Source: Hymenobacter armeniacus
GTDB taxonomy: Bacteria; Bacteroidota; Bacteroidia; Cytophagales; Hymenobacteraceae
NCBI RefSeq assembly: GCF_014699055.1
Contig: NZ_JACXAC010000001.1
Span: 806,001-870,000, forward strand
DNA: 64,000 nucleotides
Direction of reading: 5' to 3'
Part shown: positions 4,225 to 23,545 of the stretch, piece after piece
Layout of the letters: every line of letters starts with the position of its first letter
Position numbering within the stretch: the stretch's first letter is position 1
Translations under genes and position numbers: made by a program
Notes under the pieces: model-generated
Told to the model about the DNA's origin: nothing
The model's database searches: none
Seen by the model: the letters and a program-made list of their open reading frames with translations, nothing else

Positions 4225-5049
4225 ATGTCCGACCTCCAAACCCAAATTGAAGCCGCCTGGGCCGACCGCGCCCTGCTTCAAACCCCCGAAACCAAAGCCG
4301 CCATCGAGCACGTCATCGAAGAGCTCGACAAAGGCCGCCTGCGCGTGGCCGAGCCGCCGCAGGACCGCACCAACGAGTGGCAAGTGAACGACTGGGTGAA
4401 GAAGGCCGTGATTCTGTATTTCCCCATCCGCCAGATGAGCACCCAGGAAGTGGGCCCCTTCGAGTACCACGACAAGATGCTGCTCAAAACCGACTACGCC
4501 GGCCAGCAGGTGCGCGTGGTGCCGCCCGCCGTGGCCCGCTACGGCGCCTACCTGGCCCCCGGCGTCATCCTCATGCCCAGCTACACCAACATCGGCGCCT
4601 ACGTGGGCGAAGGCACCATGGTCGACACTTGGGCCACCGTAGGCAGCTGCGCCCAGATTGGCAAAGGCGTGCACCTGAGCGGCGGCGTGGGCATCGGCGG
4701 CGTGCTGGAGCCTGTGCAGGCGGCCCCCGTCATCATCGAAGACGGCGCCTTCATCGGCTCGCGCAGCATCCTGGTCGAAGGCTGCCGCATCGGTGCAGAG
4801 GCCGTGATTGGCGCGGGCGTCACCATCACCGGCAGCACCAAAATCATCGACGTGACGGGCGCTGAGCCCAAGGAGTACAAAGGCTACGTGCCGCCGCGCT
4901 CGGTGGTCATTCCCGGCTCCATTACCAAAAAATTCCCGGCCGGCGAATATCAGGTGCCTTGCGCTTTGATTATTGGCCAGCGCAAGCCGAGTACGGATTT
5001 AAAAACGAGCCTGAACGACGCGCTGCGTGATTTTGGCGTGAGTGTATAA
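4225..5049 (+). CDS. dapD: 2,3,4,5-tetrahydropyridine-2,6-dicarboxylate N-succinyltransferase
   Basis: DapD transfers succinate from succinyl-CoA to tetrahydrodipicolinate in the succinylase branch of lysine and diaminopimelate synthesis, so it feeds peptidoglycan. The 274-residue length equals that of the E. coli enzyme. An N-terminal helical domain (MSDLQTQIEAAW) leads to a left-handed beta-helix built of hexapeptide turns, with GVILMPSYTNIGAYVGEGTM, GGVGIGGVLEPVQAAPVIIEDGAFIGSRSILVEG and PRSVVIPGSITKKFP as typical signatures. The start was set at the ATG of MSDLQTQ; the extra upstream open frame has no homology-like content and lies before the promoter-like element. A small unrelated gene follows 10 bases later. 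Confidence 0.96.
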   Translation: MSDLQTQIEAAWADRALLQTPETKAAIEHVIEELDKGRLRVAEPPQDRTNEWQVNDWVKKAVILYFPIRQMSTQEVGPFEYHDKMLLKTDYAGQQVRVVPPAVARYGAYLAPGVILMPSYTNIGAYVGEGTMVDTWATVGSCAQIGKGVHLSGGVGIGGVLEPVQAAPVIIEDGAFIGSRSILVEGCRIGAEAVIGAGVTITGSTKIIDVTGAEPKEYKGYVPPRSVVIPGSITKKFPAGEYQVPCALIIGQRKPSTDLKTSLNDALRDFGVSV

Positions 5050-5059
5050 TTAAGCACAA

Positions 5060-5503
5060 ATGACATTCAGAATAGATTACGGGCAACTGCTTCGGAATTG
5101 GGTGCTGTTGAATTTGTTTGCCGTGGCTATTGCTGTTGGGGGCATATTCTACAAGGAACCCCATCACCACTTCGCCTATTCTGACTTTTACAGCGCGGCA
5201 GGCTACTCCAATTTTGCTTTTCTGGTGCTTCTGGTGTTCGAAGCCCCGCTGCTGTTCATCCTGATTGATGAGGCGGCAGGCGAGGTGAAATACCAACGGC
5301 TATTTCGCAACATCTCGGCAGTAACCCTTAATTATGGTCATGTGACTGCTGAATTTACTACCCGATACATAAGCCGTAATAATTCAGCAAAGGTTTGGGC
5401 ATTGTACTACAATGGTGATGAGCAATTCTATGTGCACATACACAATGGCTGGACCGAAAGGAAACTAACCGCTATTCATAATTTGGTTAAGCATGTGGTT
5501 TGA
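5060..5503 (+). CDS. Small membrane protein of unknown function
   Basis: I do not recognise this 147-residue protein. It has two likely membrane segments: residues about 12-30 (WVLLNLFAVAIAVGGIFY) and 48-68 (NFAFLVLLVFEAPLLFILI). A soluble beta-rich tail follows (VTAEFTTRYI, KVWALYYNGDEQFYVHIHNG). Base composition is clearly more AT-rich than dapD 10 bases upstream, and codon use is less biased, which suggests a recently acquired or weakly expressed gene. It ends just before a strong bidirectional terminator, so it is probably transcribed with dapD. No pathway can be assigned. Confidence 0.7.
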   Translation: MTFRIDYGQLLRNWVLLNLFAVAIAVGGIFYKEPHHHFAYSDFYSAAGYSNFAFLVLLVFEAPLLFILIDEAAGEVKYQRLFRNISAVTLNYGHVTAEFTTRYISRNNSAKVWALYYNGDEQFYVHIHNGWTERKLTAIHNLVKHVV

Positions 5504-5508
5504 CTAAT

Positions 5509-5538
5509 AAAAAAGCCCGCTCATAGGCGGGCTTTTTT
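5509..5538. terminator. Bidirectional intrinsic terminator
   Basis: A perfect hairpin with AAAAAAGCCCGC and GCGGGCTTTTTT arms and a six-base loop. It lies between the plus-strand gene ending at 5503 and msrA ending at 5561 on the minus strand, so it can serve both. Confidence 0.85.
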
Positions 5539-5560
5539 ATTGTTGGCACAGCGCAATTAA

Positions 5561-6097
5561 TTATACACCTGCCTTCAGTTTCTCCCCAAACAGCGCCTTC
5601 ACTTTTTCCACCTTGGGGCGGGCCACAAACTGGCAGTAAGGCTCGTGGCCGTGCAGGTTGAAATAGTTCTGGTGGTAGTCCTCGGCCGGGTAAAAGGCCG
5701 GGGCAGGCAGAATCTCCGTCACCACGGGGTTGGGGAAGGCTTGGTTGTCGTTGAGTTTCTTCTTGTACTCCTCAGCGAGCTGTTTCTGCTCCTCGTTGTG
5801 GTAGTAGATGCCCGAGCGGTACTGCGTGCCCACGTCGTTGCCCTGGCGGTTGAGGGTGGTCGGGTCGTGGGTTTTCCAGAAGATTTCAAGCAGCTCCTTG
5901 TAGCTGATAACGCTGGGGTCGAAGGTGATATCGATGACCTCATTGTGGCCCGTGAGGCCGCTGCACACTTCTTTATACGTCGGGTTGGCAATGCGGCCGC
6001 CGGTGTAGCCCGATACCACTTTCTCGACCCCTTTCAGGTTTTGAAAAACGGCCTCGACGCACCAGAAGCAGCCGGCGCCAAATGTTGCATGTTGCAT
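5561..6097 (-). CDS. msrA: Peptide-methionine (S)-S-oxide reductase
   Basis: MsrA reduces the S-epimer of methionine sulfoxide in oxidised proteins, using thioredoxin. The 178-residue protein opens with FGAGCFWCVEAVF, whose first cysteine (Cys10) is the catalytic nucleophile, and contains VVSGYTGG, the GHNEVIDITFDP strand, FWKTHDPTTLNRQGNDVGTQYRS and YHQNYF, all diagnostic of the family. No MsrB domain is fused. There is no signal peptide, so it acts in the cytoplasm. It is a single-gene unit bounded by a terminator downstream and a long palindrome upstream. Confidence 0.96.
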   Translation of the reverse strand: MQHATFGAGCFWCVEAVFQNLKGVEKVVSGYTGGRIANPTYKEVCSGLTGHNEVIDITFDPSVISYKELLEIFWKTHDPTTLNRQGNDVGTQYRSGIYYHNEEQKQLAEEYKKKLNDNQAFPNPVVTEILPAPAFYPAEDYHQNYFNLHGHEPYCQFVARPKVEKVKALFGEKLKAGV

Positions 6098-18530: not shown

Positions 18531-20066
18531 CTACTCCTCGGCGGGCAGGTCGTAGGCGTGCTTGGCCGGGGCGCTGCCCTGCTCGAAGCGCAGGCCACGG
18601 GCGCCTGTGGGCCCGCGCAGCTCGTCGGTGCCCGGGCCGCCGTATACGCGAATGCGGGGCCGGGAAACCGCAGATGCGCCGTGCTCCTCCACCACAAAAA
18701 CGTCGTCGCCTCCCAGCCCTTCGAGCTGAATCTGCTGCGTTTCGGCGGGCAGAAAAGTGCGCTGATACAGCCGGCTGGCCGACTGGGCGGCAGGGCCGGC
18801 CCCGTACACGGCCACCACGGTAGAATCGGCGTAGCGGTGTATCTCGAACCGCTCGGCCCGAGCCGTGCCGCCGATGTACGGGCGGCGTGCCAGGCGCAGG
18901 TACCAGCGGTCGGCCAGAGCCGGCAGCTGGGCCCGCCGGCTTTGGAGCGCGGCCGTGAGGCGTGGGCCTTCCAGCGCGTAGGCCGAGGCGGGTAGGCGGC
19001 GTAGGGCCCGTGCCACCAGGGTATCGGGCAGGCGCTGCTGCAAAGCCTGGGCCGCCGCCCGAAACTGCGCCCGCGTCAGTTGGTTCAGGCCCCGCTCATC
19101 GAGGTATTCGCCGTTGGAAAGCAGGTTTTCCTCGTTGGGAAAGTGCGCCGAAAACGTGGTCCAATGGCGCACGGCAACGTGCCCGATGAGCCACCCCAGC
19201 ACCCCGTCGTCGAGGCGGTAAAACACCATGTCGCGGTCCTTGGGCAAGGGCGCAATGGTGGTGGCCCCGCCGCCCGAAGTGGCCAGCCAGTTCCACTGGC
19301 CGGGGTGCCGGTCCCAGTCGCCCAGCCAGGCATCGAGCAAGCGCGCCCGAAGTAGGGCCGGCTGGTCGAGGCGTTGGGCGGGGGTTGAAAAGACTTTTTC
19401 GAACGCCTCTTTGCTGCCCAGAATGTCAACTTTTTTCCCTTCGGACACCGGCGAAGACGTTTTTTCTTCTAGGTACGCGAGCTGGCCCCGGAACAGCCGC
19501 AGCGAGTCGCCCTGGAAGGCCGGGTCGTCGGGCCGCACGTAAAACAGGCGCGGCGAGGTGTGCGGCACGCCGGCCGCCGCCGCCAAGGGCGGCACCACGA
19601 GCGCGGCATACGGGTTGGTCGACGACACATTGTCGCGCAGCACGTTCACCAGGAACGTGTTGCGCAATAACTCGGGCGTGGCCCGAATGGGGTCTTTGTC
19701 GACGGTGCGCAGCACGTAAGCCCGGCCATCGGGCGCCAGCAGGTTCAGGCTGGTGCTATTGAAGCCACCGCCCACCTTGCCCGGCCGCAGCCGGCTCGGG
19801 GAGAGCTGCAGCACCGGCACCGTGACGGGGGCCGCCCAGGTGGCCCGGTGGTGGCGGCCCACCAGAGCACCGTAGAGGCGGCCGTGGCGGGCGTATTGGC
19901 GGCCCGCCGTGACGCCCCGCACGCTGTCGGCGGTGGCGGGCAGGGGCTGGGCCCGCGCGGCATCGGGGCGGGCGTCGGGCTGAAAGAAGTTCTGGCGGGC
20001 GCAGCCGCCAAGCAAGCCGCTCAGCGTTCCAAAAGCCAACAGGTATACGGGTAAGCGGGGCGGCAT
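18531..20066 (-). CDS. Kinase-like lipoprotein, paralogue 1
   Basis: A 511-residue lipoprotein, one of three paralogues here, with no family name I can assign with confidence. The signal peptide ends at lipobox Cys22 (LLGGC). Conserved motifs in order are YVLRTVDKDP (Lys124), LAYLEEK, RARLLDAWLGDWDRHPGQW (Asp252, His254), PLPKDRDMVFYRLDDG (DRD 277-279), YLDERGLNQLT, then a Gly/Asp region LEGLGGDDVFVVEE and RVYGGPGTDEL. The Lys, D-R-H loop and D-R-D series resembles the active site of atypical kinases (HipA, CotH, FAM20). From memory, similar segments occur between metallophosphatase and BamA-like domains in large Bacteroidota proteins. The start at 20066 is chosen for the signal peptide; the frame extends to 20153 over the end of paralogue 2. 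Confidence 0.8.
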   Translation of the reverse strand: MPPRLPVYLLAFGTLSGLLGGCARQNFFQPDARPDAARAQPLPATADSVRGVTAGRQYARHGRLYGALVGRHHRATWAAPVTVPVLQLSPSRLRPGKVGGGFNSTSLNLLAPDGRAYVLRTVDKDPIRATPELLRNTFLVNVLRDNVSSTNPYAALVVPPLAAAAGVPHTSPRLFYVRPDDPAFQGDSLRLFRGQLAYLEEKTSSPVSEGKKVDILGSKEAFEKVFSTPAQRLDQPALLRARLLDAWLGDWDRHPGQWNWLATSGGGATTIAPLPKDRDMVFYRLDDGVLGWLIGHVAVRHWTTFSAHFPNEENLLSNGEYLDERGLNQLTRAQFRAAAQALQQRLPDTLVARALRRLPASAYALEGPRLTAALQSRRAQLPALADRWYLRLARRPYIGGTARAERFEIHRYADSTVVAVYGAGPAAQSASRLYQRTFLPAETQQIQLEGLGGDDVFVVEEHGASAVSRPRIRVYGGPGTDELRGPTGARGLRFEQGSAPAKHAYDLPAEE

Positions 20067-20142
20067 CAAGGGCAAGTTCAACAAAACGGTCGAGCCTTGA
20101 ACGAAGGCCGCCCGAAAATGGCTGGTGGGAAAGCGCGCGGGG

Positions 20143-21753
20143 CTAGTCGTCATTCAGACGCTCGTAAGCGCGGTAGCTTTTGCGGGGCAGGCTGGGCCGG
20201 CGGGCATTGGCGGCCGTCATGTCGGAAGCTTCGTCATAGAGACGCAGGCGCCGGGCGCTGCCGCTCAGCTGCAGGCGGTCGTGCCCGGCCCCGCCGTAGA
20301 GGCGCAGCGGCATGGGCCGTGCCGTGCCCACGGTGGAAATTTCGAACACGTCGTCGCCGCCCAGGGCGTCGAGGCTCAGCTCGTGGGTTTCGGACGCGAA
20401 ATAGGTGCGCTGGAAGCGCAGGGAGTCGCCCGCGCTGTGCCGGGCCAGGGCGGCCGAAAACACACGCACGGTGGTGGAATCCGGGTAGCGCTTCACCACA
20501 AACCGCTCGGCCTGGGCCGTGCCGCCCAGCGTGGGCGCATGGGCCAGGGTGAGGTAAAAGTCATCGGCGGCGGCGGGCAGGGCGTTGCGGCGCGTCTGCA
20601 GGTAGGACGTCAGCCTCGGCCCTTCGAGGGCATACACGGCCGGCGGCAGCCGGTGCATGGCCCGCTGAATGAGCGTGTCGGGCAGGCGCCGCTGCAAATC
20701 GGCCGCCATGCGCCGGAAATCGGCCCGGGTGAGGGCGGAAAGGCCGCGCTCGTCGATGAACCGCGACTGCTTCACGAGGCCGGGCACGTAGCCGTAGCTG
20801 GCTTTGAACGTATGGAACTGCGGCGCGATGAACCGGCGCGAGGCCAACCACGGCACGAGGCCGTCGTCAAAGCGGAAATATACCTGGTCACGGTCTTTCG
20901 GAATGGCCTGATAGCGCACCCGGCCGCCGCGCTCCCGAAAGGCGGCCCATTGCCACTGGCCTTCGTGCCGGTCCCAGTCGCCAATCAGGAGGTCGAGCAG
21001 GCGTGCACGCAGAAACGCGGGCTGGTCGATGCTGTGCGAAGGGTGGGTGTACACTTGCTTCAGCATGGCCTCGCCGCCCAGGAAGTCGCCGGCGCCGGCC
21101 AGGTCGGGGGTGCGCGACGCCAGGGCGTCGTACTTCTCTTCGAGCAGGGCCAGCTTGCCCCGAAACCGCTCCGAACCTTCGCCCAGGCCAGTTTCGTCGG
21201 GCCGCACGTACACCAGGCGGGGGCAGGCGTGGGGCACCCCGGCGGCGGCGGCCAGCGGCGGCACCGTGAGGGCGCCGTAGGGGATGGCGGCAGAGGTGGC
21301 GTCGCGCACGGCATTCAGCAAGAACGTGTTGCGCAGCACCTTGGGCAGGGTTTTGCTGGGCTCCTTGTCGAGGGCGCGGAGGGCAAACTCGCGTTTTTGC
21401 GGCCCTTCCAGCGTCATGCTGATGCTTTGGTAGCCGCCGCCCATCTTGCTGGGCTGCAGGCCGCCGGGCACGGCCGTGGCCAGCCGCAGTACCGGGGCCG
21501 TGACGGGCGCGGCCCACACGTCGCGGTAGTGGCGGCCCCAAAACCAATAGTAGGTGGGCCAGTGGCGGCTGTAGTGCCGGCCCGCGGCGGCCTGTACGGA
21601 GTCGGCCCCCGGGGGCAGCGGGGCCGTGCTGCCCACGCCCACGCGGGCATCGGGCTGGAAATAATCGCGCCGGGCGCAGCCGGCGTCGCCCAGGCCCAGC
21701 AGGGCCAGCAGGCAGGCAGCGGCGGGGGAGAGGCGCAAGGAAAAAAAAGGCAT
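20143..21753 (-). CDS. Kinase-like lipoprotein, paralogue 2
   Basis: A 536-residue paralogue of the downstream gene. Lipobox Cys26 (LGDAGC) is followed by YFQPDAR, close to FFQPDAR of paralogue 1. Motifs: FALRALDKEP (Lys130), LALLEEK (205-207), LLDLLIGDWDRHEGQW (Asp261, His263, Gln266), AIPKDRDQVYFRFDDG (DRD 287-289), FIDERGLSALT, LDALGGDDVFEI and RLYGGAGHDRL. All proposed active-site residues are present. It should sit on an envelope membrane facing the periplasm or outside, and its mature domain would need nucleotide from there if it is a real kinase. Paralogue 1 follows on the same strand after 76 bases, so the two are probably one operon transcribed away from paralogue 3. Confidence 0.82.
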   Translation of the reverse strand: MPFFSLRLSPAAACLLALLGLGDAGCARRDYFQPDARVGVGSTAPLPPGADSVQAAAGRHYSRHWPTYYWFWGRHYRDVWAAPVTAPVLRLATAVPGGLQPSKMGGGYQSISMTLEGPQKREFALRALDKEPSKTLPKVLRNTFLLNAVRDATSAAIPYGALTVPPLAAAAGVPHACPRLVYVRPDETGLGEGSERFRGKLALLEEKYDALASRTPDLAGAGDFLGGEAMLKQVYTHPSHSIDQPAFLRARLLDLLIGDWDRHEGQWQWAAFRERGGRVRYQAIPKDRDQVYFRFDDGLVPWLASRRFIAPQFHTFKASYGYVPGLVKQSRFIDERGLSALTRADFRRMAADLQRRLPDTLIQRAMHRLPPAVYALEGPRLTSYLQTRRNALPAAADDFYLTLAHAPTLGGTAQAERFVVKRYPDSTTVRVFSAALARHSAGDSLRFQRTYFASETHELSLDALGGDDVFEISTVGTARPMPLRLYGGAGHDRLQLSGSARRLRLYDEASDMTAANARRPSLPRKSYRAYERLNDD

Positions 21754-21913
21754 CCAGGAAAAAAAGGCAGGAAGTATGTGCCTTTAACGCAACAGCGCGG
21801 CAAAAGTCGGCCCGTGATGGTCAGTGGCATAACCGTAGCGCCGGGGTTTGCAGTATACACGGGCTCACACCTGGTCATCTGACCCGCCCAGCGGCGCACC
21901 GGCCCTGAAAAAA

Positions 21914-23545
21914 ATGCCACGTTTGTTTCGGATGTCTCGCGGAGGGTTGCTACGGGTATGGGGCACGGTGGCGGGCGCCGCCGCGGCCGTGGGCCTGGGG
22001 CTGGCCGGCTGCTCGCACACCGCGCCGCCCGGCAGCGCCCTGGCCCAGTGGGCGCCCGATTCGGCCACCGTGAAGCTGGCCGCAGGGCCCCAATACGCCC
22101 GCGGGCCGGTGTGGCGGTTTTTCTGGGGGGAGCACTACCGCAGCTTGTGGGCCACGCCCGTCACGGTGCCCGTCATTCGGCTGGCCCGGGCCGAGCTCGA
22201 TAGCCTGACGCCCATGCGGGCCGGAGGCAGCTACCAGAGCCGCACCCTGCGCCTGCGCACCGCCGCCGGCCACCAGCTGGTGCTGCGCTCCGTGGACAAA
22301 GACATGAGCCGGGCCCTGCCCGCCGGCTGGATGCGCAACTGGCTCAGCGGCCTCATGCGCGACCAAACCAGCGTGTCGCAGCCCTACGGTGCGTACATCG
22401 CCGCACCGCTGGCCGAAGCCGCCGGCGTGTACCACGCCAACCCGCGCCTGGTGTACCTCGCCAACGACCCCGCGCTGGGCAAGTTTCAGCCCGGCTACGC
22501 CAACGCCCTGTACCTGCTGGAAGAGCGGGCCGAGGGCGACCAGGAACATCAAGCCAGCTTCGGCGGCTCGCGGGCCATCTTCAACTCGCACCGCATGCTG
22601 GCGGCCCTGCGCCAGAGCCCCAGCTACCAGCCCGACGCCCGGGCCTACCTGCGCGCCCGCCTGCTGGATATGTGGCTCGGCGACTGGAGCCGGCGCGAAG
22701 ACCAGTGGCGCTGGGCGAGCTTTCTGGAAGGGGGCGGGGTAGTGTTCCGGCCCATTCCGCGTGACCGGGACCAAGCCTTTTTTCGGTTCGATGACGGCGT
22801 GCTCACGCGGCTGCTGTCGTGGTTTCTGCCCAAGTTTCAGAGCTTTCACGCCACCATCAAGCCGGGCAGCGTGGAAGGCCTCACCCGCACTGCCCGCGCC
22901 CTTGACCGCACGCTGCTGAGCACCCTGAGCGCCGAAGACTTTCGGCAGGAAGCAGATTCGCTGCAGCGGCGCCTCAGCGATGCCGCCATTGCGCAGGCCC
23001 TCACGGCCGGCCCCAAGGAAACACAGGCGACCATTGCCGAGCAGCTGGGGCCGGCGCTGCAGGCACGACGGGCGCAGCTGCCGGCCGTGGCCCGGCGCTA
23101 TTTTGAGCTGCTGGCCGAAGAAGCCTGGGTGCCCGGCACCGACCGCGCCGAACGGTTTGAGCTGACCGGTGCCGGGCCGGGGCAGCTGCGGCTGCGCGTA
23201 CTGGCCATTCGCCCGGCGCGGCCCGATAGCCTGATTTCAGAGCGGGTGTATGCCCAGCACGATACCAAAAAGCTGAGCCTCTACGGCCTGGCCGGCAACG
23301 ACGTTTTCACGATAGACGCCGCCGCGCCCGGCATTGCCGTGGCCCTGTACCCCGGCGAAGGCCAGGACCGGGTCGTCCTGCCCGCTGCCGCGAAGGCGGA
23401 GGCCGCAAAGCCCCTCATATTGTGGTACGGCCGGCCCGGCAGCCCCGCGCCGACCTTACCGGGCCTCACCGTGGAGCAGGACCCCGAGCCGTGGCTCAGC
23501 GCCACGGCGGCCGGCTGGCTGCGCCGCTACAACCTGCAGGATTAG
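21914..23545 (+). CDS. Kinase-like lipoprotein, paralogue 3 (active-site residues changed)
   Basis: A 543-residue divergent paralogue. Lipobox Cys33 lies in GLGLAGC. Motifs: LVLRSVDKDM (Lys129), LYLLEER, LLDMWLGDWSRREDQW, PIPRDRDQAFFRFDDG (DRD 284-286), ALDRTLLSTLS, LYGLAGNDVFTIDA and LYPGEGQDRV. Where the other two have GDWDRH, this one has GDWSRR: the central Asp is Ser (codon AGC) and the His is Arg. The rest of the protein is intact and free of frameshifts, so it looks like a maintained pseudo-enzyme rather than a decaying gene. It is transcribed divergently from paralogue 2. Its stop overlaps the stop of the convergent CrtA-like gene. Start ATG 21914 chosen over upstream codons for signal-peptide fit. 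Confidence 0.8.
   Translation: MPRLFRMSRGGLLRVWGTVAGAAAAVGLGLAGCSHTAPPGSALAQWAPDSATVKLAAGPQYARGPVWRFFWGEHYRSLWATPVTVPVIRLARAELDSLTPMRAGGSYQSRTLRLRTAAGHQLVLRSVDKDMSRALPAGWMRNWLSGLMRDQTSVSQPYGAYIAAPLAEAAGVYHANPRLVYLANDPALGKFQPGYANALYLLEERAEGDQEHQASFGGSRAIFNSHRMLAALRQSPSYQPDARAYLRARLLDMWLGDWSRREDQWRWASFLEGGGVVFRPIPRDRDQAFFRFDDGVLTRLLSWFLPKFQSFHATIKPGSVEGLTRTARALDRTLLSTLSAEDFRQEADSLQRRLSDAAIAQALTAGPKETQATIAEQLGPALQARRAQLPAVARRYFELLAEEAWVPGTDRAERFELTGAGPGQLRLRVLAIRPARPDSLISERVYAQHDTKKLSLYGLAGNDVFTIDAAAPGIAVALYPGEGQDRVVLPAAAKAEAAKPLILWYGRPGSPAPTLPGLTVEQDPEPWLSATAAGWLRRYNLQD

Follow-up and report, generated by a model that had tools for sequence, protein, structure and literature searches.

Three predicted envelope proteins of Hymenobacter armeniacus with a predicted atypical-kinase-like fold, one of them a putative pseudokinase

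A trio of paralogous genes

A 64,000-nucleotide stretch of the Hymenobacter armeniacus genome (RefSeq assembly GCF_014699055.1, contig NZ_JACXAC010000001.1, positions 806,001 to 870,000; hereafter the window) carries three neighbouring genes, here named P1, P2 and P3, whose products have a predicted kinase-like fold. P3 has Ser where P1 and P2 have the predicted catalytic Asp. This D/S difference, picked up in an earlier note made from the same DNA, marks a conserved clade that travels with an Asp-bearing gene. The genes and the region between two of them are as follows.

18531..20153, minus strand: P1, stand-alone kinase-like protein of the Asp type (D-type), 540 aa from the first ATG
20143..21753, minus strand: P2, stand-alone kinase-like protein of the Asp type, 536 aa
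21848..23545, plus strand: P3, stand-alone kinase-like protein of the Ser type (S-type), predicted pseudokinase
21754..21913: P2-P3 intergenic region if P3 starts at 21914, without the TAnnTTTG motif

P1 and P2 lie in tandem, while P2 and P3 are divergent. The P3 frame is listed from a TTG at 21848 and its likely start is the ATG at 21914, which gives 543 aa and a gap of 160 bp to P2. The promoter motif TAnnTTTG was absent from this gap and occurred 15 times in the whole window versus 13.9 expected. All three open reading frames (ORFs) were present as the earlier note described, and the paralogy it proposed was borne out: P2 and P3 were 49% and 37% identical to P1 in alignment, and P2 as query against its own genome retrieved P1 (E 1.5e-140) and P3 (E 3.5e-89). 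Of the sizes given there, 543 aa fits P3 from the ATG at 21914, but 511 aa for P1 counts from Met30 instead of the first ATG.

Signal peptides and lipoboxes were assessed by eye, and the three proteins are predicted to be exported to the cell envelope. The lipobox was clear in P1 (LGGC) and P3 (LAGC) and unusual in P2 (DAGC); 43 of 70 stand-alone-length domains contain a match to a simple lipobox pattern. The proteins are thus likely lipoproteins, as had been claimed, though not uniformly.

Predicted fold, active site and the Ser clade

The AlphaFold2 model of P2 (predicted local distance difference test, pLDDT, 92.4; predicted template modelling score 0.93) and the core model of P3 (pLDDT 95.1) were confident. 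Both contained the two-lobed core by which the protein kinase-like (PKL) superfamily is recognised, the CotH kinase fold was likewise found in the predicted models, and the top structural matches of both were solved atypical kinases, which supports the kinase-fold reading put forward earlier. A model lacking such a core, the outcome that the earlier note had named as refuting its reading, did not arise. The parts of the proteins referred to below are located as follows.

20545..21501, minus strand: kinase-like core of P2 (model residues 60-378), approximate span of the VIA alignments to type II phosphatidylinositol 4-kinase (PI4KII) and CotH
18891..19832, minus strand: kinase-like core of P1, inferred from alignment to P2, ends approximate
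22163..23116, plus strand: kinase-like core of P3 (core-model residues 32-349), approximate span of the VIA alignments to CotH and PI4KII
22688..22690, plus strand: codon of P3 Ser281, at the site of the predicted catalytic Asp, from ORF translation and alignment
20236..20532, minus strand: C-terminal strand-rich region of P2 (model residues 383-481) with GGDDVF and GGAGHD, from secondary structure

Conserved residues were determined in an alignment of 118 rows, the trio included and some rows near-identical, and are numbered as in the P2 model (P2 numbering minus 25). Fourteen positions were invariant (G80, G81, R101, K105, E180, R226, D229, D234, R237, W242, P260, D262, R263 and D264) and D126 was found in 117 rows, with Glu in one, so the motifs named earlier recur far beyond chance. 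In the secondary structure of the P2 model, G80-G81 close strand 75-80, K105 stands directly past strand 97-102, D126 falls within helix 119-130 and E180 within strand 176-182, the GDWDRH loop separates helix 219-231 from strand 242-248, and D262-R263-D264 come after strand 254-260. As modelled, the conserved residues sit in kinase order: the PKL series of beta3 Lys, alphaC acidic residue, loop Asp and metal Asp was found in P1 and P2, with Ser as the loop residue in P3.

Position 236 is predicted to be the catalytic loop Asp. The loop Asp of CtkA and of CotH pairs with it in the same register in two alignments, both weak in score, in which position 234 pairs with Asn. Of the 118 rows, 91 have Asp at position 236, 26 have Ser and one has Gly. 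The predicted catalytic set is K153, D174, E229, D281, Q286 and D306/D308 in P1 and K130, D151, E205, D261, Q266 and D287/D289 in P2. Its counterpart in P3 is K151, D172, E225, S281, Q286 and D306/D308, where Ser281 replaces Asp281 and Arg283 replaces His283. The residues K124, D252 and D279 proposed earlier for P1 correspond to K153, D281 and D308 from the first ATG; P3 departs from this set at D281.

The C-terminal strand-rich region of P2 falls outside the span of most fold matches, and no fold was assigned to it. Its GGxDxF and GGxGxD elements are conserved in stand-alone and fused forms; the late GGDDVF and GGxGxD elements noted before are present, but imperfect in P3 (AGNDVF, PGEGQD). 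By eye the region resembles calcium-binding repeats. An RTX calcium-binding reading of GGxGxD found no Pfam support in P1-P3 and 34 domains.

Once the loop columns were removed, the alignment gave a tree with three groups, read without a fixed root: 49 rows of the P2/P1 type, 26 Ser rows (Shimodaira-Hasegawa-like approximate likelihood ratio test 95) and 43 rows of fusions and their kin. A single D/S change explains this tree, in which the Ser and P2/P1 groups may or may not be sisters. Because the Ser clade covers Hymenobacter, Adhaeribacter, Rufibacter and Pontibacter, P3 represents an old paralogue and not a recently decayed copy.

Gene pairing was examined in the best 80 of 585 loci by similarity to P2. 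Stand-alone-length domains occurred in 41 loci (one of which, L077, falls with the fusions in the tree), with a D-type gene in 40, an S-type gene in 25 and both in 24. The locus with an S-type and no intact D-type gene (L069, H. qilianensis) has a P2-like gene broken over two frames (4294-5702) next to an intact S-type gene. D- and S-type genes are adjacent in most paired loci and about 3.5 kb apart in L050. P1, the second Asp-type copy, was found in 5 of 40 related loci, all of them Hymenobacter.

Substitution rates were compared over 21 pairs per type from seven Hymenobacter loci. Nonsynonymous divergence (dN) was 0.055-0.336 for the S-type against a synonymous divergence (dS) of 0.325-1.701, with a highest ratio of about 0.5, and 0.073-0.299 against 0.302-2.373 for the D-type, several dS values being near saturation. 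Both types are under purifying selection, S-type genes being about as constrained as D-type genes; since dN is well below dS, the Ser form has been kept by selection.

Fused relatives and gene neighbourhoods

With P2 as query against about 5.8 billion proteins, 7998 candidates were scored and 562 matches obtained; among the 120 matches listed, named sources were nearly all Hymenobacter, with one Microvirga sp. and one Bacteroidota bacterium. The UniRef label 'GWxTD domain-containing protein' on several relatives (e.g. P0002) looks mistaken, and NCBIfam gave no match for P1-P3. The domain was found in 142 of 395 sampled genomes of the phylum, in three length forms: full fusions (about 1100-1380 aa), domain plus barrel (about 850-960 aa) and stand-alone (about 500-590 aa), labels that reflect open-frame length except for the proteins scanned. 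No description of such a family or fusion was found in titles and abstract starts of the open-licence literature, including the available parts of KINtaro (PMC10870513) and of a review of bacterial pseudokinases (PMC12599244); earlier notice elsewhere is possible.

The H. armeniacus genome holds five copies of the domain, the trio and two fusions (1326 and 1241 aa), and two of the five lack the predicted catalytic Asp (Ser in P3, Gly in the fusion L005). The earlier note had mentioned larger metallophosphatase-BamA fusions, and such proteins exist: both own-genome fusions begin with a calcineurin-like phosphoesterase domain (PF00149), the second below the curated cut-off, and the barrel was seen in relatives. 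A direct scan of both own-genome fusions found no Omp85 barrel. A protein of the same length as one of them and identical over the 466 residues compared (P0121) is listed with PF00149 and PF01103, PF01103 occurred in 4 of 6 further proteins scanned, and an Omp85 barrel in 2 of 3 scanned proteins of about 850-960 aa.

Neighbours of the fusions were grouped in BLAST clusters within about 6 kb at 40 loci, one member per cluster being identified by Pfam. PPK1 was found at 15 loci, a SixA-like histidine phosphatase at 11, an HD-PycTM protein at 23, a cluster with a nucleotide cyclase (some members short frames) at 14, and an SdiA-regulated protein at 12, where it always lies immediately upstream in the same orientation. 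The first own-genome fusion adjoins an HD-PycTM gene (L161:9140-10453); HD-PycTM (Pycsar effector domain) and nucleotide cyclase genes near fusions hint at a possible cyclic-nucleotide link. The second has a Ppx/GppA phosphatase gene 72 bp downstream and PPK1 beyond (L162:4755-12010). This second fusion (L162:8285-12010; also L005) has the loop DFGKHEDNW, with Gly at the predicted catalytic position, and the phosphatase motifs GDKD and AHDY versus GNHD and GHEH in the first; both centres look degenerate, yet the gene is kept beside PPK1 and Ppx/GppA.

Because PPK1 is common (355 of 395 genomes), only nearness to it counts. This was measured for 103 typed domain genes in 80 of the 142 genomes, in figures that ignore kinship between genomes. 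At a distance of up to 10 kb, PPK1 accompanied 10 of the 27 domain-plus-barrel genes (from 3 of 9 families), 7 of the 63 full fusions (from 5 of 15 families) and none of the 13 stand-alone genes, where uniform placement predicts about 0.7% per gene. At up to 20 kb it accompanied 25 of the 63 full fusions; one family (f24) supplied 18 of these 25, and 15 of those 18 lie at 13-14 kb. Nearness to PPK1 thus recurs in several fusion lineages and was not seen for stand-alone genes. No polyphosphate link of the latter was seen: at up to 20 kb, too, PPK1 accompanied none of the 13 genes (7 genomes, 3 families).

A topoisomerase IB gene stands close to the P3/P2 pair in many loci of Hymenobacter as well as in Adhaeribacter (L050) and Rufibacter (L054); other frequent neighbours encode an M48 peptidase, an APP1 phosphatase, a DUF4440 protein and a monofunctional transglycosylase (mtgA). 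A P2-type gene without an S-type gene adjoins topoisomerase IB in L057 and L059 (Pontibacter), L062 (Botryobacter) and L065 (an Adhaeribacter metagenome-assembled genome), and in five Pontibacter loci the D and S genes are in tandem while the stretch fetched contains no topoisomerase IB. These neighbours were considered as functional partners and rejected, the conserved synteny being read as shared ancestry. No antitoxin partner was found among the neighbours scanned. In the window, the protein encoded at 23542-24348 matches CrtA, a spheroidene monooxygenase, at E 1.1e-60, short of the curated cut-off.

Interpretation and comparison with known systems

On balance, we slightly favour the view that the trio are envelope proteins of atypical kinase fold, that P1 and P2 likely phosphorylate an envelope substrate and that P3 is likely their nucleotide-binding pseudokinase partner. 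In P2 and P1, the Gly-Gly loop, the beta3 Lys and D-R-D would hold Mg-ATP, or a different phosphoryl donor, between the two lobes, and the second Asp of GDWDRH would carry out the phosphate transfer. P3 would retain the binding residues, be impaired in transfer, and activate or position P2 in the manner of Fam20A for Fam20C; what the data show of this proposed partnership is the pairing of the genes. That P3 is a pseudokinase is predicted and not certain, since it retains D279 and the choice of catalytic Asp follows weak alignments.

Several results weigh against this view. P1-P3 matched no Pfam or NCBIfam family at E<=1. Foldseek gave no P2 match at E<=0.001, and the best kinase matches of P2 reached template modelling (TM) scores of 0.22-0.30 of the query (YihE 0.14; root-mean-square deviation mostly 8-16 A) and those of the P3 core 0.32-0.44 (YihE 0.16; mostly 8-12 A); on these low scores and the lack of a significant match, the modelled kinship to known kinases is distant. 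A Pfam scan of 34 domains gave scattered weak matches, CotH appearing in two at E 0.096 or worse, and their profile against PDB sequences gave nothing significant (CtkA fourth, E 0.93; the three above look unrelated). In profile-profile comparison, 25 CotH sequences gave E 0.048 with A3, scoring 23.8 versus 24.3 for an unrelated M48 control, and E 0.008 with A4, weak though the best of 13 sets (29.0 versus 24.4 for the best control); the CotH alignment was the longest by far (151-154 columns), which is not significant by itself. An S-type gene was missing from the stretch fetched in 16 of the 40 D-type loci (some on short contigs), so a nearby S-type gene is not a constant requirement of D-type proteins, and selecting loci by similarity to P2 favours finding the D-type gene. 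Finally, the periplasm is not known to offer ATP.

The S-type proteins also keep D234, two residues upstream of position 236 and a conceivable base. All three proteins might therefore be active, the S-type using D234 (GDW-S-R) while the D/S change tunes substrate choice; D234 is found in every one of the 118 rows, all 26 Ser rows among them, and the S-type genes are as constrained as stated above, but in the weak alignments the kinase loop Asp of CotH and CtkA pairs with D236 and their Asn with D234, and we regard this as unlikely. Non-catalytic fold relatives, forming an outer-membrane binding scaffold with residues kept for ligand or metal binding, are about equally improbable: two of the five own-genome copies lack the predicted catalytic Asp and no activity is known, but the expected residue set is complete in most rows, Asp stands at the predicted catalytic site in 91, and the Lys, Glu and D-R-D are strictly invariant. 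Less doubtful than either, though still less likely than not, is that the fold serves another chemistry (AMPylation, glutamylation, or lipid or glycan rather than protein phosphorylation). No residue or neighbour indicates one chemistry, and the APP1 neighbour, judged by eye, lacks an obvious signal peptide, and it stands among ordinary cell-maintenance genes. Beyond the favoured view, the trio might form the soluble arm of a so far unrecognised family for phosphotransfer in the Bacteroidota envelope, with a single phosphatase-kinase-Omp85 protein of the outer membrane as parent, polyphosphate as donor instead of ATP, which the envelope would lack, and the kinase switched on by its own pseudokinase; we consider this a long shot.

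Bacteria have few kinases beyond the cytoplasm, and where these would obtain phosphate is a standing question. A family as widespread as this one, with its conserved pair of a catalytic and a degenerate member, would offer a genetic system in which to test phosphorylation in the envelope, the control of bacterial kinases by pseudokinases and the nature of the phosphate donor; the fusions that unite a phosphatase, a kinase and an outer-membrane barrel, in some cases next to polyphosphate genes, would add to it.

Among known kinases, CotH (PF08757) is reported to be inactive as D228Q (PMC7821199). The trio is 12-13% identical to it, falls outside its Pfam family as described, has an invariant D-R-D where CotH has W-D-x-D/N, and belongs to predicted Bacteroidota envelope proteins with an extra C-terminal strand-rich region and metallophosphatase/Omp85 fusions. 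Unlike HipA, HipT and CtkA (PF07804), the trio is predicted to be exported and a toxin-antitoxin setting was not seen; the HipA_C model gave no match to P1-P3 and did not appear among the families listed for the 34 domains, and profile-profile comparison with 20 HipA sequences gave no meaningful alignment. Type II phosphatidylinositol 4-kinases, which are eukaryotic lipid kinases, are 9-12% identical, with no sign of a lipid substrate for the trio. The Lani_1194 kinase family (Legionella, also Flavobacteriales) was rejected because it is described as a kinase-methyltransferase and is hence another family (PMC9758233). By analogy, the trio resembles Fam20A/Fam20C, a non-cytosolic kinase with an activating, secreted pseudokinase paralogue (PMC7948968), and Fam20C was among the Foldseek matches; the trio differs in being bacterial, in its linked genes, in lacking a sequence match to Fam20 and in that the interaction of its P2 and P3 is a proposed one. 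The metallophosphatase-Omp85 fusions carry this kinase-like domain too, at about 30-40% identity to P2, and differ from the trio in their N-terminal PF00149 domain, their C-terminal PF01103 barrel where detected and, for some, their nearness to PPK1.

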